Shown here: positions 6,599-16,140 of the stretch, in pieces | Position numbering within the stretch: the first letter of the stretch is position 1 | Layout of the letters: every line of letters begins with the position of its first letter | From: Nitrosovibrio sp. Nv17 | Lineage (GTDB): Bacteria > Pseudomonadota > Gammaproteobacteria > Burkholderiales > Nitrosomonadaceae | NCBI RefSeq assembly: GCF_900119085.1 | Contig: NZ_FPIQ01000006.1 | Coordinates: forward strand, 1 to 64,000 | Length of the DNA stretch: 64,000 nt | Direction: 5' to 3' | Notes under the pieces: generated by a model | Database searches by the model: none | Told to the model about the DNA's origin: nothing | Seen by the model: the letters and a program-made list of their open reading frames with translations, nothing else | Program-made: the position numbers and the translations under genes

Positions 6599-7219
6599 AT
6601 GAACCGGAAGACACTCTGGTACGTCGCCGATCCCATGTGCTCATGGTGCTGGGGGTTCTCGCCCGTGGTGGAGGCGATCCGGCGCGAGTACCGGGATCGG
6701 CTGGGGATGGAACTGCTGCTGGGCGGCCTGCGGCCGGGCACCCGGCATGCCCTGCCCGCGGCGCAGCGCGAGGAGATCCTGCATCACTGGCATGCGGTAC
6801 GACAGGCGACGGGGCAGCCCTTCCAGTTCGAAGGCGCCCTGCCGCCGGGATTCATCTACGATACCGAGCCTGCCAGCCGCGCCGTGGTGGCTGCCTCCCT
6901 GCTGCATCCCGGCGAGGTGTTCGCGTTCTTCAGGAGCGTGCAGTCCGCCTTCTATGCAGCGCAGCGGAACGTGACCGATCCGGCGGTGCTGATGCAACTG
7001 GCCGAGGAAGTGGGGCTGGATGCGCAGCATTTTTCCCGGCTGCTCGACTCCGATACGGCCAGGGATCTGACCCAGGATCATTTCCAGAGAGCGCGCCAGT
7101 GGGGCATCCAGAGCTTTCCCACGCTGGTGGCCCAGGATGGATCGGATCATGCCGTACTGGCCAGGGGATATCTTTCGTTCGAGGCGTTGCGTCCGGCGCT
7201 GGACGCATGGCTGGCGTAG
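6599..7219 (+). CDS. DsbA-family oxidoreductase-like protein (cytoplasmic, FrnE/HCCA-isomerase type)
   Basis: A 206-residue thioredoxin-fold protein with an inserted helical domain. The active-site CxxC is C14-S-W-C17 (ADPMCSWCWGF) and the cis-proline loop is SFPTLV near residue 180. No signal peptide is present, so it should act in the cytoplasm, unlike classical DsbA. It ends the pirin operon, 58 bp after the ycaC-like gene, with GGGGAGAGG upstream. Members of this branch act as disulfide isomerases or glutathione-dependent isomerases; the choice is open. Confidence 0.85.
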   Translation: MNRKTLWYVADPMCSWCWGFSPVVEAIRREYRDRLGMELLLGGLRPGTRHALPAAQREEILHHWHAVRQATGQPFQFEGALPPGFIYDTEPASRAVVAASLLHPGEVFAFFRSVQSAFYAAQRNVTDPAVLMQLAEEVGLDAQHFSRLLDSDTARDLTQDHFQRARQWGIQSFPTLVAQDGSDHAVLARGYLSFEALRPALDAWLA

Positions 7220-7299
7220 GACCTTGCCTGCTAGCGAAACGCTGATTTAAGTCTGGCGCTGTAGAATATTCGAATTATCTGATGCTGTGCGATACTCCG

Positions 7300-7575
7300 A
7301 TGAAACGCCAGAGCAGTTTTGCCGATATGGAATATCCGGCGCGTTGCAAGCTGACGCGCCGGGAGAAATTTCTGACCGATCTTGACCGGCTGGTTCCGTG
7401 GACGGAGCTGATGCACTGATCGAGCCGTACTACTACCGTGGCGCGCGTGGCCGCCCGCCGCTGGGACTGGAGTTGATGCTTCGCATGTACCTGTGCCAGA
7501 ACTGCCTGGGCCTGTCGGATGAAGGAATCGAGGACGCGATTGTCGACCGCATTGCGGTGCGCCGTTCAATGGATG
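7300..7575 (+). pseudogene. IS5-family transposase relic (frameshifted and truncated)
   Basis: Starting at the ATG at 7300 the frame reads MKRQSSFADMEYPARCKLTR and continues to WTELM before a stop. The adjacent frame continues ALIEPYYYRGARGRPPLGLE and LMLRMYLCQNCLGLSDEGIE. Together these are the N-terminal part of an IS5-type transposase, with a one-base deletion near 7411. Homology ends after IAVRRSM, so the DDE catalytic domain is absent. It marks the left edge of the defence island and cannot transpose on its own. Confidence 0.85.
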
Positions 7576-7639
7576 AAAGATCCATCATGATGCGTCCATT
7601 TCATGTCGATGCTGTCCAGGGTGCCCGCTTGTCCAAGGC

Positions 7640-8650
7640 TCATATCGAGTTTGCCTTCTCTTGAATGGTTTGGCATTGTCGAAGGAGGGTGTCAAAGGAT
7701 TCGACCTCGTCGAGGAACAAGCCATCGTCGACCATATGCTGATAGTCGGCTGCCAACTTGGCTAAGGCGCTATTGCTGGGAACGAGGCGAAGATTGCCCG
7801 AGACAGCGGCGTGGTAGTCGATCGGTTCACCATTCGGATGTTTCTCTGCGAAGAAGATACTCTTGTGATTGGCTACCGCCTTCGCCAGTGTCTTGTCCGC
7901 CATCGCCGCGTCGGTGAAGCCGGCGTCGTCCAATCGGGTGATATCATGCCAGTGACGTGCGAACCGGTTGCCACCGCGGAAGGCACCCTGCACGCAGAAG
8001 ACATGGATCGCCGTGGCTTTTTCCCAGAAGGTTCGCTCGGCACGCATTACTTGCGCCGACGCCTCAGGGAGCTCCACCCCTGACAGATGCGGAGTGGCAT
8101 CGCAGTGAACGGAGCGCAGTTCCCACGGCTCCCCAGTAGACCGAGCGCCAAATTCGAGCATGACTACCGATGGGACATAGCCCGTTCCAGAAGTCAGTGG
8201 GGTGTAGTCGATGAGCACTCTGTCGCCTTCAGTCCTGACCTGGGTGGGCAAGCCATGCCGCTCAACGTCATTCTGGAGCCGCGGGCTAACTTCGGTGCCT
8301 ATCCATTCAACCAGGCGGGAGCGGATCTCCTTGCTCCATTTTTTTTCCTGGCTCCTGCTGGCTGGGAGCGGAGTATCTGCATCGCCGATCAGATCGGCAG
8401 CAATGGTACGGATATCATAGGTGAGATCCACATCTTCTGAGAAACGCTGAATGATGCCATAGGCTTTCGACAGGGATGTGCCACCCTTGAAGACGAGATG
8501 GGGCGCATAGGGGGCGGAGAAGAGATGCTGTAGGGACCACACCACCCAAATGTCTTTTTCCAGCAGGTGGGGAGGGCGCCCGGACGCGTTGGCGGCCTGA
8601 ACAAGGGCCTCCAGGCGTTCGCCGGCAGAGAGCTCGAAGAACTCAACCAT
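7640..8650 (-). CDS. abiEii: Type IV toxin-antitoxin toxin, AbiEii nucleotidyltransferase
   Basis: A 335-residue nucleotidyltransferase-like toxin. The DNA polymerase beta-type motifs are HLVFKGGTSLSKAYGIIQRF (GGTS motif) followed by SEDVDLTYDI, and the later FWEKATAIHVF is typical of AbiEii/AbiGii. By family knowledge, AbiEii toxins use NTP to modify tRNA and stall growth, giving bacteriostasis or phage abortive infection. The ATG at 8650 overlaps the antitoxin stop by 8 nt; an in-frame ATG 15 nt upstream is possible. The full length and intact motifs suggest it is functional. Confidence 0.92.
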   Translation of the reverse strand: MVEFFELSAGERLEALVQAANASGRPPHLLEKDIWVVWSLQHLFSAPYAPHLVFKGGTSLSKAYGIIQRFSEDVDLTYDIRTIAADLIGDADTPLPASRSQEKKWSKEIRSRLVEWIGTEVSPRLQNDVERHGLPTQVRTEGDRVLIDYTPLTSGTGYVPSVVMLEFGARSTGEPWELRSVHCDATPHLSGVELPEASAQVMRAERTFWEKATAIHVFCVQGAFRGGNRFARHWHDITRLDDAGFTDAAMADKTLAKAVANHKSIFFAEKHPNGEPIDYHAAVSGNLRLVPSNSALAKLAADYQHMVDDGLFLDEVESFDTLLRQCQTIQEKANSI

Positions 8651-9239
8651 GTGGTACCAGAGCACTCATCTCCTGTGCCAACCATGTCGGCAAGCGTGCG
8701 CGCGCCGACGTCACTTCCTTCATCTCGGCTGGCGATAATTTGGTGCGCAGCGCACGCAGTGCTTCACCGGCCTTATCCGGCCCCAGCCATGCCAGCGCCC
8801 GCACCACATCGCCGGCAGCGCGGCCTGGAAAGATCAACTGCCACAGCGGCGCATGTCGCAATTCCACGGTCTGAGCCCCGAGCTTCAAGCGACGGCTGGG
8901 GCCGGACGTCAGGTAGACTGCTCGCATCGGTACCTGGGTGGTGAGGCCAAGCGCGTTAGCGGCGGCCGCGCCATGCGACACGATGGTTTCCCCGCGTTGG
9001 CTGGCCAGTCCCTCAACCATCTTTGCGGTTGAGGGTGCTCGGGAGCCAAAGCGGCTCTCGACCGGCAAGACATAGATGCCGCGGCCCACGCGCAGCAGGC
9101 TGCCACGCTGCACGAGACGCGACAAAACCTGGTCCACGGCGGCGCGGTTCCCGAGGTGCAGCAACTCCTTCGCGACCAAGGGCGTACCTTCTGGCAATCC
9201 GGCGGCGTGTTCCAGAACGTGTTTGGCGAGAGGTTGCAT
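8643..9239 (-). CDS. abiEi: Type IV toxin-antitoxin antitoxin, AbiEi
   Basis: A 198-residue antitoxin with an N-terminal winged helix (LHLGNRAAVDQVLSRLVQRG then SLLRVGRGIYVLP) and the AbiEi C-terminal domain (VSHGAAAANALGLTTQVPMR, then YLTSGPSRRLKLG). AbiEi represses its own promoter through inverted repeats and counteracts the toxin without direct binding. The ATG at 9239 is preceded by CAGGAG 10-11 nt upstream. It is co-transcribed and coupled with abiEii (8-nt overlap). An operator-like inverted repeat lies just upstream. Confidence 0.9.
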   Translation of the reverse strand: MQPLAKHVLEHAAGLPEGTPLVAKELLHLGNRAAVDQVLSRLVQRGSLLRVGRGIYVLPVESRFGSRAPSTAKMVEGLASQRGETIVSHGAAAANALGLTTQVPMRAVYLTSGPSRRLKLGAQTVELRHAPLWQLIFPGRAAGDVVRALAWLGPDKAGEALRALRTKLSPAEMKEVTSARARLPTWLAQEMSALVPHG

Positions 9240-9240
9240 G

Positions 9241-9540
9241 ATGGAACAACTCCTGAGTGACAGAAGTATGATAGAATTTCTGACACTTTTCAAGTTAGCT
9301 ATCGGCCAGCGATGGTGGCATCGGGTGGCCGCCATGCTGAGGGCCGGTGAAATCAAGCTCAAGGTTTCGGGGCGAGAAGTCACTGCCGTAGGCCAGCAGA
9401 TGATCGATGCTATGAAGACCAACAACTCCTTCAAACAGATTGGCGTCGCGTTGTGCGACGAACGCCCTTCCATCGAAACTCTCGGTCAGGCTGCGGAGCG
9501 GCTCACCGAACTGGTGGGCGACATGGTCATCCCCCGCTGA
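9241..9540 (+). CDS. Small ORF of unknown function, divergent from abiEi
   Basis: An open frame of 99 residues starting back-to-back with the abiEi start (CATGATG). It reads as a soluble helical polypeptide (MIEFLTLFKLAIGQRWWHRV, later SIETLGQAAERLTELVGDMV), and GAGAGG stands just upstream. No family is recognised; it may be the 3' end of a larger decayed defence gene. If translated, the abiE promoter would lie inside it, so either expression is mutually exclusive or this is a relic. Confidence 0.4.
   Translation: MEQLLSDRSMIEFLTLFKLAIGQRWWHRVAAMLRAGEIKLKVSGREVTAVGQQMIDAMKTNNSFKQIGVALCDERPSIETLGQAAERLTELVGDMVIPR
9256..9293 (-). promoter_or_regulatory. Probable abiE promoter with AbiEi operator
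   Basis: Reading leftward, TTGAAA (9293-9288), a 17-bp spacer and CATACT (9270-9265) form a plausible promoter. A 10-bp inverted repeat with one mismatch, AGTGTCAGAA - 12 bp - TTCTGTCACT (arms 9287-9278 and 9265-9256), spans the spacer and -10 region. This is where AbiEi autoregulatory repeats are found in known AbiE systems. Confidence 0.55.
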
Positions 9541-9926
9541 AGCAGGAGATCAGCAAGACGGCTGCCACCATATCATGCCGTTCCTAACTCATATTGGGCA
9601 GAAAGTGCTTTTTGGAGGACAACACCTTTCTCAGATATTTCGTATCAATATGAGATTGAAGTTGAAATGATCAGCTTGAAACAAGTGCAGATAGGTTTAG
9701 ATGCAGCAAAGAAAGCAGGCGTTTAGCCAGGACCAAAGCTTTTTGCCAGATCATATATGTGCATATACAGCATCGATGAGAAAACGATTGGAAGGACGAG
9801 ACATCACTCTTTTAGGGCACGTGAGAAGTAATAATAACATCGATCTTCGGCTACGAATGGTCATGGGCATCAGCGACCGAGATTGCGATGGTCTGCTCTT
9901 CCAAGGAGCGATTGTGCGCTTACCAA
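9541..9926. other. Non-coding interval inside the defence island
   Basis: About 390 bp, noticeably AT-richer than the chromosome around it. Short broken frames are present (for example one reading MISLKQVQIGLDAAKKAGV near 9668-9726) that may be gene debris. No intact gene, terminator or repeat was recognised. Confidence 0.4.
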
Positions 9927-12900
9927 TCAGCTCCCGTCCTCTGCATCGGGATCGGGCGTCAGGATTGGCCACGAGCGCCCTGACGCAAGATCGGGATGGC
10001 GCGGCTCCGATTCTGGTGCGCCGAAGTCATCCCTGAGCTTGTCGATGAGGTTGAGGCAGCGGGCAGCGGGGTTATCCTTGCCACCGCGGCCCGTCATCGC
10101 CAGCAGCTTTCGGCGCAGCTCGATCGCCGGGACGGGCACGACATTGTAGACACCTTCCCAGTTCTCCGCCGGGACGTGCTCCGTGACAGCGCTTTGGATC
10201 GACCGCCATGTCATGAACGAACGTCCGGTTTTCATTTCGAAATCAATCAGCATCAGCACGCCGTCCTCACCAGGGGCTTCGGCGACCGCGCTGGCGAGCA
10301 AGGCGAGTTGCTTGGAAGTTGGCCCATCCTTCAGGAGGCCGTAGACATAGGTGCGCACCTCTGGAAACTCCGAAATCAAGCCACCCAATTCGCGTTGCCA
10401 ATGCCACCCGTCGTATGATCTGCCGTCGAGCGCGCCGCTGACGGTCAAATCAACGAGGCGACACGCGGCGGATACAGTGCCGAGCTGCAACGCTGCCGAG
10501 CGCCACTGGTAGTTCTGGTAGAACTGCGGGTTTTCTTCGGCGAGCGTGAAGATCAAATTTTCCGCGTCATCTGAGGACGAGTTGCCGAGGCAGCCGACCA
10601 TCTCTTCGAGCATTCGTGGATCGCGCTGCGCGTCCGGCATGCCGCGCACGATGGTGGGCAGATCGGTGACAGGCGTGGCGAACGGCAAAAGGCGTAACCA
10701 AGCGCGTAGCTCATACGCGTCGCTCTGAGTCAGAATCCAAGTCTCCTCCTTGGCCGCCTCAAAGGTCTCAGCGATGCCGTCGGCCACGAGCTTGATGTCG
10801 ATGTCCTCGCCAGAGAGGATCAGCGACAAGAGCAAGGCTGCGCGCGCCTGCCTCGGCGCGAGAGAAATGAGCTTCTGGATCGTCGGGTCACGCTGGCCGT
10901 GCGGGAGCCGCGTTCCGACAATGCCGAGCGCAACCCCCAGCTTCACTTGCGCATCAGTCGAACCGTCGACAATCAACGTGTCGATTGCGCCGAAGATCGC
11001 CTCCGCCTCGGCCGATGTCGCGGCGGGATCGGCGGCGCGGGCCTCGCGGCGCTCTTCCACGCGCGAGAAATCTTCGCCGCTCAGGAATTTCTTGTCGTCC
11101 TTGGGTTCGTTCGCCTCGAACCACTGGACGGCCAGCACACGCGCCGCCCGCTCGCCAAAGTGTTCATCGGTCAGGTATTCTCCCATCAGCGCAGCGGTCT
11201 CCGGCGCATTGATCGCCAAGAACGCACGTTGGTACTCGTGCATGTGTGGATGCTGCGCTTCTTGCACAGCGTCGCGATCCTTCCAGCCGCTCGCGGTAGC
11301 TTTTTCGCGGAAAGTTCGATAGCGACGTAAATTGTCGTCAAGCATTCTCTTCAAGAATGGAAGATGTTCGACGGACGGCGCGTGGCTCATCATCGTTGTA
11401 ATGGTAGCCACTCGCCAACGCTTCTCATCCCCAGCGGCGAGCATGCGCTCTGCCCATTCGCGCGCCAGCACTCCGATTGCGGCCAAGCCTTCCTCATTGA
11501 AGGGCCGCGCCCGCTCTTCGTCGCCATAGGTCTCACGGGAAAACAGCTCGGCCAATTGGACGATTTCCTCATTGTCAGCGTTTACCGCCCGCGCCTGAAC
11601 GGCGGCCACCAAACTTGCGCCCGGCGTGTGGCCGATACGGGCGCGCAGATCATGATAGCGATCACCCGCCGCCTGGTTGTACTTCCCGCTGGCGTCGCGC
11701 ACGACTTTCCCAGCTGCAAGATACGCGTCGATCAGCCGGCCAACAGCGTTTGGTCCCAGCACCGAAGCGGCGGCCTCGGCGCGGTCGTCGTGGCGGCTTG
11801 TTTCTTCGAGGGCGATCCCGAGCAGCGCGCCGTCCTCAAGGGCAAATCCGGCGGCCGCAAGAATATCGTCTGCGCCGTAGAAGAGTTCGTGGTGCTCGCG
11901 CACGCGGCGCAGCAGCCCGTTAGCGAGAGCCTCCGGATAGCGCTTTCGCACTTCGTACAACAGGTGCATTTCGCCATCGCGTTTCCGGTCGATCTCCATG
12001 TCGGCAACAATCTCAGTAACCTCGGTATCGCGGTCATCTCCGCCCGGCGCGTAGACGAGCGTACGCAGGCGCTGGAAGTGCGAAATGCCGGCGGCTTTGC
12101 GCCGTTCGTGCGCACGCCGGAGTTCCTGCTGGACGGCATCAACCGCAATGTCGTTGAGGTGGCCCTTTTCGGCGAGGATGTCGTAGGTCGCGTCGCTCGC
12201 GTCGGCAAGCAAGTCGGCGACGTGGCGATCCGCCCGTCGAAATGAGAGTGCATCGACCACCGTCGCCTTCACGTTCGGGTCGCTGTCAGTCTTCGCGATT
12301 GCGGTTGCAAGATCGAGGCCGTCGATTCCGCCATGCGATGCAATTCCATGCAGCACGTTCTTGCGAATTTCCGGTGGCAGTGCTGCGATGCGCGCCAGGG
12401 CCTCGTTCCCAAGCACGGATGTGCGAAATCGTTTCGCCGCCCGGAGGGCGGGCAAGTGTATCTGAGTGTTCGCGTGAGAAATTAGGGGCCAAAGAAAATC
12501 GCCGAATTCCGGTCTGCCTGAAGCGATCATGAAACGCACGGCACGATCCACCTTGCCGGGCGCGTGCCACTTTTCGGTGAGGCTGCGAATCTCGGCTCCG
12601 ATCGGTGCCCAAATGTCGTCGGTGGCGCGGAAGATCATTTCGCCCGCGAGGACGGGATCGACCTCAAAGGCCGCGAGAATAGCGGTGCTGCATGCGGCCT
12701 TCTGCGCGGCATCGCCACGTACGCTCCGTTCGACGGCGAACAGAACTGCTTCTTCCCACGGGCGCTGATCGAGCACGTCGGCCTTCAGCTTATCGCGCGC
12801 TGCCGGATCGCTGACGGCCTGTAGCATCAGTCGTTCGACGTGGTGCGATGCATACCATTCCTGAAATTGTTGGTGCTGGAACGAATAGCCCGGTGTGTCG

Positions 12901-14306
12901 CCGGAGCGCGTCAGAACGTGATTGCTGACAAGCGTGTCGAGCAGCGTGTCGGGCTGTGTGGCGATCGTTATTTGCCCATCGGCCATCAGGACCCGCGCGG
13001 TCTCGGCAACTGCTTTGCGCGCGTTGCTGTCCGTGATCGCGGTGTTGGCCGTTGTGGTGGCGAATACGGCGAGATTGTCCAAATAGTCCTGCTGGAAGCC
13101 TAGGGCCTTGGCATGAAGCGCCGCCGCACGGCGGGCTTCCTGTTCGTGTGCGGCAATGAAGCGCCGTAGCACTTCTTCCTTTGTTGTAGGAAAAGGCGCG
13201 CCCTCTGGCAGCGAGAGAAGTGCCGTGAGGTAGAGTGGGATGGTCACAAGATCCCGGACACCAGCTGTCCGCCATGCCTGATCGACGAGCTGTGCGCCAG
13301 CCTCGCCCCGCATACCGCGCGCGATCTCCATTTGCTGCTCATCGTCAAGTGGCAGTAAATCGACCTGCGTCCCGCCGAACGGAATGTCAAGGGCCTGCTT
13401 GCGCGTGGAAATGAAAAGGCCGAGCTCTGGCAATTCAGTTTTAAGGGCAGTGATTTGCACGCGCGCACGTTCGCGTGCAGCGGCATCCAGTTCGTTCCAG
13501 CCGTCAAGAAGCAGGACGACGCCAGGTTTCGTCGCGACGGTGCGGAAATCTTGCTCTGAAATCCCGTTAAACGCGGGGCGTTTGAGGACGGATGCGAGCA
13601 GCGCTTCGCCTTCGGTGGCCCAATCTCCCAGCGGCACGATGAGTGGCGTGCCATTGCCGATTTCCAACAGACCATCGGCGACCTGAAAGAGGGTTGTCGT
13701 CTTTCCCATTCCGGGTGCGGCGACAAGGATGAGGTCATCCAGCGCGGTTACCGCGTTGGCAAGTGCGCGCGTGCTAAGCGCCTCGTTTACGTGCTTTACT
13801 TTTAATGTCAGCGTAAGCGCCACGTTTGTGCCTGGCCATTTGGGTGTTCGACGAAACACGGCCAAATCTGCAGCGGCAGCATTTTGAAAGCGTGCACTGA
13901 TCTCAGCAACCGTCGGCGGCATGGTCGAGCCGAAGGGAAGCTTGTCGATAACGCTGCGCCACATGTCCTCAGAATGCTTCTGCTTCCAAGTGTGCAGAAA
14001 TGCCTCGGTGAAAATGGGATCATCTGAATCAATTGCCTTTGCACAGTCTTGGCAAAGCCAAATCCCGTTCCCATGCGATTTCCGTTGTTCGGGCGTCATA
14101 TCGGCGCGATAGCGGCGCGCACCAACTCCGGGGGCTGCAGCACAGATATGAGCGGCAACTCCAATATTCATTTCCTTTAAGCCATCGCTGGTCGGCGCTG
14201 ACGTCAGCTTCCTGCAACTAGGATTGCTACAATGATACCGGGCTTGCTTCGCTAGGCGTTTCTTAGTCGCTTGAGTGAAGTTATCCCTGTTGTTATTCTT
14301 GGTCAT
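9927..14306 (-). CDS. HNH-NACHT NTPase, candidate NLR-like antiphage protein
   Basis: A 1459-residue protein. Residues about 20-110 form an HNH/zinc-binding module: C26 and C31 in YHCSNPSCRKL, H53 in VAAHIC, N80 and C85/C88 in NGIWLCQDC. A NACHT-type P-loop NTPase follows: Walker A at 196-204 (AAPGMGKTT), Walker B at 263-274 (VVLLLDGWNELD), then STRK and winged-helix-like segments. From roughly residue 550 onward the sequence is long, helical and repeat-like, as in HEAT/TPR sensor domains (inference). NACHT proteins with N-terminal effectors act as bacterial NLR-like phage defences; here the effector would be a nuclease. The ATG at 14306 begins MTKNNNRDNF; an upstream GTG at 14339 is less likely. 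It overlaps a small upstream ORF by 14 nt and lies next to AbiE. Base composition is less GC-rich than the flanks. Confidence 0.82.
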   Translation of the reverse strand: MTKNNNRDNFTQATKKRLAKQARYHCSNPSCRKLTSAPTSDGLKEMNIGVAAHICAAAPGVGARRYRADMTPEQRKSHGNGIWLCQDCAKAIDSDDPIFTEAFLHTWKQKHSEDMWRSVIDKLPFGSTMPPTVAEISARFQNAAAADLAVFRRTPKWPGTNVALTLTLKVKHVNEALSTRALANAVTALDDLILVAAPGMGKTTTLFQVADGLLEIGNGTPLIVPLGDWATEGEALLASVLKRPAFNGISEQDFRTVATKPGVVLLLDGWNELDAAARERARVQITALKTELPELGLFISTRKQALDIPFGGTQVDLLPLDDEQQMEIARGMRGEAGAQLVDQAWRTAGVRDLVTIPLYLTALLSLPEGAPFPTTKEEVLRRFIAAHEQEARRAAALHAKALGFQQDYLDNLAVFATTTANTAITDSNARKAVAETARVLMADGQITIATQPDTLLDTLVSNHVLTRSGDTPGYSFQHQQFQEWYASHHVERLMLQAVSDPAARDKLKADVLDQRPWEEAVLFAVERSVRGDAAQKAACSTAILAAFEVDPVLAGEMIFRATDDIWAPIGAEIRSLTEKWHAPGKVDRAVRFMIASGRPEFGDFLWPLISHANTQIHLPALRAAKRFRTSVLGNEALARIAALPPEIRKNVLHGIASHGGIDGLDLATAIAKTDSDPNVKATVVDALSFRRADRHVADLLADASDATYDILAEKGHLNDIAVDAVQQELRRAHERRKAAGISHFQRLRTLVYAPGGDDRDTEVTEIVADMEIDRKRDGEMHLLYEVRKRYPEALANGLLRRVREHHELFYGADDILAAAGFALEDGALLGIALEETSRHDDRAEAAASVLGPNAVGRLIDAYLAAGKVVRDASGKYNQAAGDRYHDLRARIGHTPGASLVAAVQARAVNADNEEIVQLAELFSRETYGDEERARPFNEEGLAAIGVLAREWAERMLAAGDEKRWRVATITTMMSHAPSVEHLPFLKRMLDDNLRRYRTFREKATASGWKDRDAVQEAQHPHMHEYQRAFLAINAPETAALMGEYLTDEHFGERAARVLAVQWFEANEPKDDKKFLSGEDFSRVEERREARAADPAATSAEAEAIFGAIDTLIVDGSTDAQVKLGVALGIVGTRLPHGQRDPTIQKLISLAPRQARAALLLSLILSGEDIDIKLVADGIAETFEAAKEETWILTQSDAYELRAWLRLLPFATPVTDLPTIVRGMPDAQRDPRMLEEMVGCLGNSSSDDAENLIFTLAEENPQFYQNYQWRSAALQLGTVSAACRLVDLTVSGALDGRSYDGWHWQRELGGLISEFPEVRTYVYGLLKDGPTSKQLALLASAVAEAPGEDGVLMLIDFEMKTGRSFMTWRSIQSAVTEHVPAENWEGVYNVVPVPAIELRRKLLAMTGRGGKDNPAARCLNLIDKLRDDFGAPESEPRHPDLASGRSWPILTPDPDAEDGS

Positions 14307-14511
14307 CGACGGCCTGCTCGGATTTGGTCGTGTGTACACATTCTAAATTTTGCCCACCGGTGGACATGTTGCCGATCTCGGCTGAAATCAAAAGCAAAGA
14401 CACATACCCCGCTGCCGCAGCGATATTGCTTGAATGTCCGCCAATCGCAGCCTGCGCTTCTACGGCGAAATCAACGTCCCCAGTTCGCAGATGCTCGATC
14501 AATTTGGCCAC
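14293..14511 (-). CDS. Small ORF overlapping the start of the HNH-NACHT gene
   Basis: A GTG-start frame of 72 residues with an amphipathic N-terminus (AKLIEHLRTGDVDFAVEAQA) and a central hydrophobic stretch (NIAAAAGYVSLLLISAEIGN). Its stop lies 14 nt inside the start of the NACHT gene, an arrangement typical of translational coupling. The frame remains open upstream of the GTG toward a MITE-like relic, so the true N-terminus is uncertain. No family is recognised. It could be a regulatory partner of the NACHT protein or a truncated gene. Confidence 0.4.
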   Translation of the reverse strand: MAKLIEHLRTGDVDFAVEAQAAIGGHSSNIAAAAGYVSLLLISAEIGNMSTGGQNLECVHTTKSEQAVDDQE

Positions 14512-14548
14512 ATCCGATTGCAGGGCTGGGTCAAAAGTATTGAGCCGT

Positions 14549-14620
14549 CGGGTCCTACACTTGTTTCGTGGCCGTCCCTCTGGGTGCGCGCGAAAGCGCG
14601 CCGGCGCCCCGCGACCCCGA
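14549..14620 (+). repeat. Degenerate end of the MITE found intact at 29418-29680
   Basis: The 15-mer ACACTTGTTTCGTGG here is identical to a segment of the right terminal repeat of the MITE at 29.4 kb (read on the minus strand there). The following bases (GTGCGCGCGAAAGCGCGCC) resemble the MITE interior (GTGCGAAAAGCGCGAGGGC). The outer bases are degenerate (GGGTCCT against GGGCCTGTTA). No second end was found. Confidence 0.35.
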
Positions 14621-14656
14621 TCGGTGCTGAAAGCATTTGATCCGCTTTCCCGTTTT

Positions 14657-14725
14657 CATGTAGGAAATATTCCGACATGAAGATTCCGCCGTTTCCTACA
14701 TGCAAATCGGATGAAATCCGATTTG
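14657..14725. repeat. Two adjacent perfect inverted repeats
   Basis: First repeat: CATGTAGGAAA (14657-14667) and TTTCCTACATG (14692-14702), 11-bp arms with a 24-bp spacer. Immediately after it: CAAATCGGAT (14703-14712), GAA, ATCCGATTTG (14716-14725), 10-bp arms with a 3-base loop. No T-run follows, so these are not ordinary terminators. Their function is unknown. Confidence 0.6.
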
Positions 14726-14996
14726 CCGGAACATTTCTTTCAGGGACAATGCAATCCATCAGGAAAGACGGACTGACGGGCTGGACAGGCCGTCCTGCGA
14801 TGCTGAAGGGCCATCACGACAGCCAGGCAGTCCATGCTGTCGTAGTGCCTTCCACTACGCATGCTGCGTGGCGCGTATTCCGAAATCCGATTCCCTCTTG
14901 TCCGGTGGCTGGATTCATGCTCCCTCCACCGGTTCTTTTTTGAATCCCGCGTACGCCGGGTCAGCCGCCGGGCGATGCCTTGGCTGCGTGTCAGGC

Positions 14997-15710
14997 TCAA
15001 GTGGTATTCGTCGAGTTCGATGAATCGATTCCCGCCTGCTCCGAGGGTTTGTCCTCTGCGGCATCGAAGTGATAGAAACGGGTGCCCAGGTCGATGAGCG
15101 GCCGTCCCTGGCTTCGGCGGCGCCGATTGGTGTCACGCAGGGAGTAGACACATCCGCAGTATTCCTGCTGGTAGAATTCCTCGCGCTTGCTGATTTCGAT
15201 CATGCGTGCCGAACCGCCGCCTTTCCTCCAGTTGTAATCCCAGTAGCTGAGCCCGGCATAGCGGCCCGCCGCGCGGCGTCCGCAGTCATTGATCTGCTCC
15301 ATGTTCTTCCAGCGGGAGATGCCGAGGGAACTCGTGATGACGGGAAAGCCGTGTTCGAACGCATGCAGCGCGGTGCGCTCGAAGCGCATGTCGAAGCACA
15401 TGGTGCAACGGATGCCGCGCTCGGGTTCCCATTCCATGCCGCGTGCCCGCGCGAACCAGTTCTCCGTGTCGTAGTCGGCGTCGATGAACTCGATGCCGTG
15501 TTTTTCCGCAAAACGGATGTTTTCATCCTTGCGCAGCAGGTATTCCGCTTCCGGGTGGATGTTGGGATTGTAGAAAAAGATCGTGTAGTCGATGCCGGAA
15601 GCCAGCATCGCTTCCATGACCTCCCCGGAGCAGGGTGCGCAGCATGAGTGTAGCAGCACCTTCTTGTGGCCCCCGGGGGGTACGAGGATGGGTCGGGTCA
15701 TTGTATCCAT
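14997..15710 (-). CDS. queH: Epoxyqueuosine reductase QueH
   Basis: Catalyses the last step of queuosine tRNA modification, reducing epoxyqueuosine to queuosine; it replaces QueG in many bacteria. Family cysteine motifs are present: [17 protein letters not shown] near the N-terminus, [17 protein letters not shown], and [13 protein letters not shown] near residue 190. These are Fe-S cluster ligands and the redox pair. The frame stays open to 15851, but no Shine-Dalgarno marks any start; I used the ATG at 15710 as the closest to the normal family N-terminus. About 25-30 C-terminal residues after the core are low-complexity. Confidence 0.9.
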
Positions 15711-15807
15711 GGGTTGCGCATCGTCGGTGGCCGCTTCGGGCCGCGAGACGGGGATTTCCGCAGGGCGGCGGATCATGGGCGGATCTTCGGCCAGCGAGGA
15801 CGCAATG

Positions 15808-16140
15808 TCAATCAGCCGGCGTCTTGCGCCGCCCCGCAGGAAGCCCCGCATTGATCTCTATCCATTTTGCCGCCGCCAGGCATGCCGCCGCGCGCAAGGT
15901 GGGAGCGTGCGTCCTCATGTCATCGCAGCACAGGGTGAAACCCCCGGCCCGCTCCGGCGTGGCCCGGTTATAGGTCGCCTGCTCGCAGTATTCGCTCAGC
16001 CAGTCCAGTATTTCCTTGTCGGTGAGCATGAGCGGCGCCGGCTGGTGTTCGGTCCACGATTCGATCCAGGATCCCATGAAAATTCCGGTTGTCGGCGGCG
16101 GCTTGCCGGGAGTGGCCGGCCCGTGATCCGGGTATTCCAT
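15808..16140 (-). CDS. Hypothetical protein under repressor-type promoter control
   Basis: A 110-residue frame; the part from [20 protein letters not shown] onward has normal coding character ([20 protein letters not shown]). The start is uncertain: ATGs at 16140, 16077 and 16029 are possible and none has a strong ribosome-binding site. No family is recognised. It is read from a promoter at 16197-16225 that contains a perfect copy of the operator found next to the repressor gene at 17.3-17.8 kb, so it probably belongs to the prophage-like regulon. Confidence 0.5.

Follow-up and report, generated by a model that had tools for sequence, protein, structure and literature searches.

A giant NLR-like HNH-NACHT receptor in Nitrosovibrio sp. 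Nv17, probable survivor of a two-gene operon

The first 64,000 nucleotides of contig NZ_FPIQ01000006.1 of Nitrosovibrio sp. Nv17 (hereafter the window) encode a protein of 1459 residues that combines an HNH domain, a NACHT module and a long C-terminal part, located beside an AbiE toxin-antitoxin pair. This inventory had been proposed from the DNA letters in an earlier reading (hereafter the original prediction) and was confirmed by Pfam, PADLOC and profile searches and by structure modelling. By sequence and modelled structure the protein is an intact bacterial NLR-like (bNACHT) receptor of a known kind, with a probable DNA-cutting N-terminus. We consider it likely that this receptor was acquired horizontally, that it descends from a two-gene operon whose other gene (hereafter the partner) has been deleted to its last ~86 codons, and that it aborts infection by DNA cleavage. 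The features concerned are the following.

9927..14306, minus strand: HNH-NACHT-NCAB2 receptor, 1459 aa, intact, with a possible extension to a GTG at 14339; 62-row full-length alignment
13932..14306, minus strand: HNH nuclease effector domain, residues 1-125, with invariant C26, C31, H53, N80, C85 and D93 and with C or H at 88
12747..13916, minus strand: NACHT STAND NTPase module, residues 131-520, with Walker A PG-GK (198-202), Walker B LLLDGWNE (265-272) and winged-helix FQHQQFQEW (476-484)
10200..12746, minus strand: HEAT-like/helical region, presumed sensor, residues 521-1369
9966..10199, minus strand: NCAB2 (NACHT C-terminal Alpha/Beta 2), residues 1370-1447
14293..14554, minus strand: partner-gene remnant, last ~86 codons of a Cap4/DUF4297-like nuclease-STAND protein, with a 14-nt overlap with the receptor start

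Domain organisation and family of the receptor

The open reading frame (ORF; 9927-14339, minus strand) contained no internal stop and encoded 1459 residues from its most likely start at 14306. Profile searches supported the predicted N-terminal HNH domain: residues 9-119 matched the PADLOC candidate family PDC-M68A (E = 1.5e-19), whose 253-aa profile has the HNH N-terminus in common with the receptor and matched that part only. The same part matched PADLOC profiles of CBASS (cyclic-oligonucleotide-based antiphage signalling system) effectors and SAVED-HNH proteins (8.9e-11 to 1.8e-5) and, in a profile search against solved structures, the HNH endonuclease 9om4 (5e-18) and SAVED-HNH structures (about 3e-9). 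The Pfam HNH match of residues 1-125 was weak and below the cut-off (E = 0.19).

Relatives of the receptor were taken from 79 loci found in a scan of genome contigs and four from a viral contig collection (loci and genomes are designated by L and G numbers, respectively). The full-length alignment comprised 62 rows including the window, two of them identical; fragmentary or split copies and loci with a different N-terminus were left out. Residues C26, C31, H53, N80, C85, D93, G199, G201, K202, D268, W270, N271, R302 and H478 never varied, while position 88 was C in 18 rows and H in 44. Conservation was higher over most of the HNH and NACHT parts, lower at 700-1370, as expected for a variable sensor, and rose again in NCAB2.

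The P-loop region had been predicted to match NACHT/STAND profiles. Pfam NACHT (PF05729) scored 19.9 bits on the window protein, against a cut-off of 26.7, and was matched at E ≤ 0.01 by 35 of the 51 family rows. A profile built from these 51 rows found NLRC4 as the best match for this part (E = 3e-5) and aligned LLLDGWNE with LLLDGYNE of NLRC4; in a second, weak stretch of the alignment (0.7 bits), FQHQQFQEW of the receptor fell on the F-H--FQE motif. In NLRC4, the histidine of this winged-helix motif is regarded as keeping the ADP-bound protein inactive, and its counterpart in that weak stretch, H478, was invariant in 62/62 rows. NCAB2 was present in all 51 family rows checked (Pfam E = 1.5e-27 for the window protein).

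An AlphaFold model of residues 1-720, built from 51 of the 62 alignment rows, superposed best on NLRC4, NLRP3 and NOD2, in line with the NLR-like architecture originally proposed, at 12-16% identity; its HNH part matched CBASS Cap5. Residues 131 to ~658 resembled NLRs both by sequence profile and by modelled fold. The model was helical up to residue 720, and a HEAT_2 match at 641-709 remained below threshold. Residues 521-1369 are presumed to be the sensor, and the C-terminal part may recognise a ligand. The window receptor differs from NLRC4, NLRP3 and NOD2 in having no detected CARD/PYD or LRR, a nuclease in front, and a HEAT-like part and NCAB2 behind.

The sequence features of a bNACHT protein were found in the window receptor: a STAND NTPase of the NACHT type, whose Walker A and Walker B residues G199, G201, K202 and D268 were invariant in 62/62 rows, preceded by the HNH effector and followed by NCAB2. 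None of the ten PADLOC families matched by the receptor at E ≤ 1 bore an Avs name, which speaks to described AVAST types only. The resemblance of the HNH domain to Cap5, in sequence and in fold, raised the alternative that the protein is a CBASS-like effector with a cyclic-nucleotide trigger. This is highly improbable: Cap5, whose HNH-SAVED structures are described in the accessible part of PMC8568899, has SAVED behind HNH, whereas the window receptor has a NACHT module, NLR-like by profile and fold, and a Pfam scan of ten further window proteins, which cover a minority of the window ORFs, found no CD-NTase.

The bNACHT proteins bNACHT25 and bNACHT32 (clade 6) are, by their description in the available text of PMC12169576 rather than by sequence comparison, similar to the window receptor in carrying a nuclease effector, NACHT and a C-terminal sensor in one chain. 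They have PD-(D/E)XK and NCH1 where the window receptor has HNH and NCAB2, and the clade of the window receptor adds a second STAND giant. According to the same text, both degrade DNA after MS2 infection and depend on the nuclease for protection, and H506 in the NACHT domain of bNACHT25, a possible equivalent of H478, is predicted to hold the off state. Partial texts further describe a NACHT protein, reported by DefensePredictor, whose effector is a metallophosphatase and in which residues of both parts are required (PMC13092281), and a Caulobacter CARD-NLR-like system (PMC13236601). HNH and NACHT are mentioned in the accessible parts of PMC8195603 and PMC7159879, which contain no HNH-NACHT chain. 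Titles and opening lines of abstracts likewise held no recognised description of an HNH-NACHT protein or of the two-gene operon, which does not establish their absence from print. The original statement that the chain had not been described in this exact form was too strong for the chain itself, since Pfam already has NCAB2 as a family that takes its name from NACHT proteins.

The effector domain most likely has been exchanged between otherwise near-identical receptors. Over residues 61-130, eight close relatives were 81-94% identical to the window, and L009, L011, L012 and L019 only 45-46%, while residues 191-520 of these four rows remained 91-92% identical. In L077, L082, L083, L084 and L085 the BLASTP match began only at residue 127-132, behind a different N-terminus (a tblastn match for L085 spanned 26-1449). 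The N-terminus of L077 weakly resembled Mrr/LmuA-like nucleases (0.065 and 1e-4); Pfam and PADLOC found nothing clear in those of the other four. The HNH domain alone resembled phage 'lysogenic conversion' proteins (36-42% identity; P2-EC46 and a Yersinia phage; hits H32-H34), so that effector modules of this kind occur in phages as well.

The partner gene, its loss and horizontal transfer

Of the 19 genome loci whose receptor identity was 78% or more (the clade), 16 encoded a homologue of a second giant, of ~1310 aa, directly upstream of the receptor and on the same strand. Searches with tblastn (E ≤ 1e-5) of the fetched DNA, which was short upstream in some cases, gave no match to this partner at the other 60 genome loci and the four viral-collection loci, and none was confirmed in the viral contig collection. 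The partner was only partial in L012, L021 and L031 (contig edges or deletion); in L021 (7336-10826), a deletion joins its first ~231 residues to the receptor from about residue 334. In 12 of the 15 loci for which the junction was printed, the receptor ATG lay within the last codons of the partner, with an overlap of 14 nt in nine, 8 nt in L014 and L016 and 26 nt in L041. A Marinovum algicola plasmid carried the same gene pair with the 14-nt overlap, and a Ruegeria plasmid record contained the partner followed by the first 126 receptor residues, where the record ends.

The N-terminus of the partner was weakly Cap4/DUF4297-like (Pfam 0.005; PADLOC LmuA 2e-4), with invariant D80, Q92 and K94. 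Behind it lie a P-loop (G316-S320), D370/D371 and a match to a MarR-like winged helix; all these Pfam matches were below their cut-offs. Lamassu LmuA and Cap4 share a weakly similar N-terminus with the partner, which, in contrast, goes on with a STAND-like NTPase and a long C-terminal part. The Pfam scan of the partner gave no SMC or SAVED match, and no BLASTP match between partner and receptor was better than E 1.5. Distant partner homologues without an HNH receptor listed adjacent occurred on Agrobacterium, Sphingopyxis and Caulobacter plasmids. Pairwise distances of partner and receptor were correlated (r = 0.65, Mantel p = 0.009, 9 loci), consistent with the two genes having moved together and recombined to some extent.

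In L015 the upstream slot was occupied by a different protein of 1185 aa, with NACHT above the Pfam cut-off and a start that appeared Cap4-like by eye (no Pfam match there). L032, L046, L054, L057, L061 and L065 encoded further giant P-loop proteins, some with nuclease-like starts by eye, no more than 2 kb from the receptor; a seventh nearby giant, that of L045, resembles Mfd, a repair protein. A second giant near the receptor therefore appears recurrent, the background rate not having been established. The giants of L032 (2382-6806), L057 (5761-10443) and L061 (3210-7736) form a family of ~1500-aa P-loop proteins with a mutual identity of 22-26%. The L057 giant begins 4 nt after the HNH-NACHT gene and was matched neither by Pfam (E ≤ 1e-5) nor by PADLOC (E ≤ 1e-10).

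In the window, positions 14293-14554 corresponded to the last ~86 partner residues, in frame and with their own stop, at 75-76% identity to L007. DNA homology to more than ten relatives began exactly at 14554 (identity up to 91%) and, at the other end, stopped at the receptor stop codon or within ~20 nt of it. A second partner copy was not found elsewhere in the window's genome. In the receptor tree, the window was placed inside a 13-row clade with a support of 100, and its nearest outgroups (L049, L048 and L026) showed no partner. Because the window is nested inside the operon clade and the outgroups are partner-free, the simplest reading is that the partner was gained once and lost here. The original prediction of a self-contained one-gene system would, by descent, not hold.

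Horizontal acquisition across classes is well supported. RpoB of the host was betaproteobacterial-like, with identities of 80% to Paraburkholderia and a Methylophilaceae strain, 79% to Cupriavidus, 77% to Achromobacter, 74% to Rubrivivax and Vitreoscilla metagenome-assembled genomes (MAGs), 67% to Halomonas and 60% to Parvibaculum, Xanthobacter and Croceicoccus; one of the 14 genomes compared, a Nitrosomonas MAG, gave no match. The receptor, in contrast, was closest to alphaproteobacterial copies (89% identity to those of Parvibaculum and Rhodobiaceae) and near-absent from the genus. Searches of the 22 further genomes of the genus yielded nothing of it but an 80-residue fragment in G003, 61 genomes of relatives yielded only the own copy and this fragment, and a class-wide survey of 369 genomes (E ≤ 1e-30) only the own genome. 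The fragment (L006, G003:C32:21339-21575), 59% identical to receptor residues 444-523 and with two stops, is a second relic. L016, an Arenimonas MAG, was not used as evidence of transfer, since its RpoB was only 59% identical to that of the host, a value like those of the alphaproteobacteria, and the bin may be mixed or misnamed. In an empty-site search of 14 other genomes of the genus, QueH was found in five and a DsbA-like gene in 13; where both occurred, they were found on separate contigs or at distances of hundreds of kb.

An unlikely, but not negligible, alternative is that the receptor is a decaying relic, non-functional or unregulated since the loss of its partner, and that it looks intact because the loss was recent. 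Its partner is reduced to a stub where 16/19 close loci keep the gene, six other clade copies were broken in the assemblies used, and no promoter-like site was found upstream. Set against this, the frame is full-length with intact active-site motifs, and dN/dS (replacement to silent substitution rates) relative to L007 was 0.16. The replacement/silent ratio was 0.35-0.52 on the window branch against 0.35-0.75 on the compared branches and was higher in 3 of 15 comparisons, so that no consistent excess of replacements was seen. A low dN/dS does not prove function, since the loss may be recent. Relatives at 43-65% identity were mostly full-length genes and had no partner of this kind in the DNA fetched, so that within this family the gene is viable on its own.

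Several points weigh against a functional receptor descended from a two-gene operon. The case is entirely computational; the Pfam NACHT and HNH matches of the window protein alone, and all Cap4 and NTPase matches of the partner, fall below cut-offs, and the structure model stops at 720, so that the sensor half was not folded. With respect to the operon, L008, L019 and L031 (3/15 loci) lack the overlap, the partner ending 15-30 nt before the receptor, the L011 partner is split into two frames, and absence of the partner elsewhere is known from fetched DNA alone. The tree was computed rapidly, with SH-aLRT (Shimodaira-Hasegawa-like approximate likelihood-ratio test) values as its only branch support. 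With respect to the orphan, the low dN/dS may mostly reflect the time before partner loss; the stub is too short to date that loss, and length differences misaligned some pairs. Clade copies were truncated or frameshifted in L016, L021, L037, L038, L041 and L055 (5'-truncated in L037 and L055), which, with the split L011 partner, suggests that decay may be common. A sigma-70-like promoter was not seen upstream of the receptor (other promoter types were not covered), and if the clade needs both receptors, the orphan may be inactive.

AbiE and other flanking features

Four further features flank the receptor and the stub.

8643..9239, minus strand: AbiEi antitoxin, start inferred to be the ATG at 9239
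7640..8665, minus strand: AbiEii nucleotidyltransferase toxin (Pfam, PADLOC)
7398..7664, plus strand: transposase relic, DUF772 (Pfam)
14655..14724, no strand assigned: ~70-bp palindrome, recurrent in the genus

Positions 7640-9239 encode a regular AbiEi/AbiEii pair, a nucleotidyltransferase adjoining its antitoxin. The pair is adjacent to the receptor on the same strand, and AbiE genes also occurred upstream of the operon in relatives, as a pair in L007, L010, L041 and L021 and as AbiEii at a contig edge in L035. The title of the original prediction may suggest that AbiE and receptor form one unit; a composite system of this kind is very unlikely. The window pair lies downstream of the receptor, on the opposite side from that of the relatives, whose AbiEii were only 27-30% identical to it; the other 14 of the 19 clade loci had no relative of the window AbiE in the fetched DNA, and DNA homology ends at the receptor stop, as described above. 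On this comparison of sequences, AbiE is a system separate from the receptor. The original prediction was thus partly borne out, in its parts list, kind of receptor and transfer, and not as regards a solo gene by descent, a common unit with AbiE and an undescribed chain.

The transposase relic on the left was confirmed as such; the label IS5 comes from the original prediction. The palindrome, originally read as a relic like a miniature inverted-repeat transposable element (MITE) that bounds the segment on the right, matched its own genome only once at E ≤ 0.001, in place of the multiple copies of a MITE, and its ~70-bp core occurred in 9/22 other genomes of the genus at 74-83% identity. No Rfam match was obtained within 7000-15900 at E ≤ 1. 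In G006 the palindrome lies just upstream of genes recognised by eye as flhD and flhC, which makes it a possible regulatory site and not necessarily the end of a transposon.

The scan of neighbours of the relatives covered 93 ORFs, the nearest among 329 that had at least 200 aa and closed frames and lay no more than 4.5 kb away (L001, L006, L002, L034, L035 and the partner cluster left out), with the best 25 of 119 PADLOC families and the best 25 of 109 Pfam families listed. Among the matches listed, PADLOC (E ≤ 1e-10) gave QatD (2) and mad2 (2) and single matches to SngC, a type I methylase, BrxH, AbiU, AbiEii, HmaC and several candidates; Pfam gave 5 phage integrases and 3 recombinases. The two QatD matches are probably those of L012 and L037. 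On the Marinovum plasmid, QatABCD-like genes are located downstream of the receptor (annotated Mg-dependent DNase, two hypothetical proteins and a KAP P-loop protein).

Proposed mechanism and meaning

The intact operon encodes two STAND-type giants end to end, mostly with overlapping frames, each with a nuclease domain (the first Cap4/DUF4297-like, the second HNH). In the proposed mechanism, the C-terminal part would keep the ADP-bound NACHT closed in the resting state. An infection signal would release it, ATP-bound subunits would oligomerise, and the HNH domains thus brought together would cut DNA and abort the infection, for which an anti-phage role is the presumed setting. The orphan in the window may still be able to act in this way on its own.

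The bacterial NLR-like proteins in the available parts of the bNACHT papers act as single genes. The receptor itself is of a known kind; what the sequence comparisons suggest as new is its origin as one half of a two-receptor operon, of which one slot was swapped in L015 and emptied in the window. Tentatively, and with less confidence than in the origin of the orphan, the operon may represent bacterial 'paired NLRs'. Two STAND giants with different nucleases would then cooperate from one operon as one sensor/helper or mutually guarding unit, the first receptor (Cap4-STAND, or the NACHT giant of L015) and the HNH effector being exchangeable, and the window would hold a natural single-receptor version.

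Plants have paired NLRs. If the proposal is true, a mobile and conserved two-receptor operon would be their bacterial parallel. The window and its relatives provide natural versions with the partner, with another partner and with no partner, and thereby pose the question of whether the second receptor acts alone.
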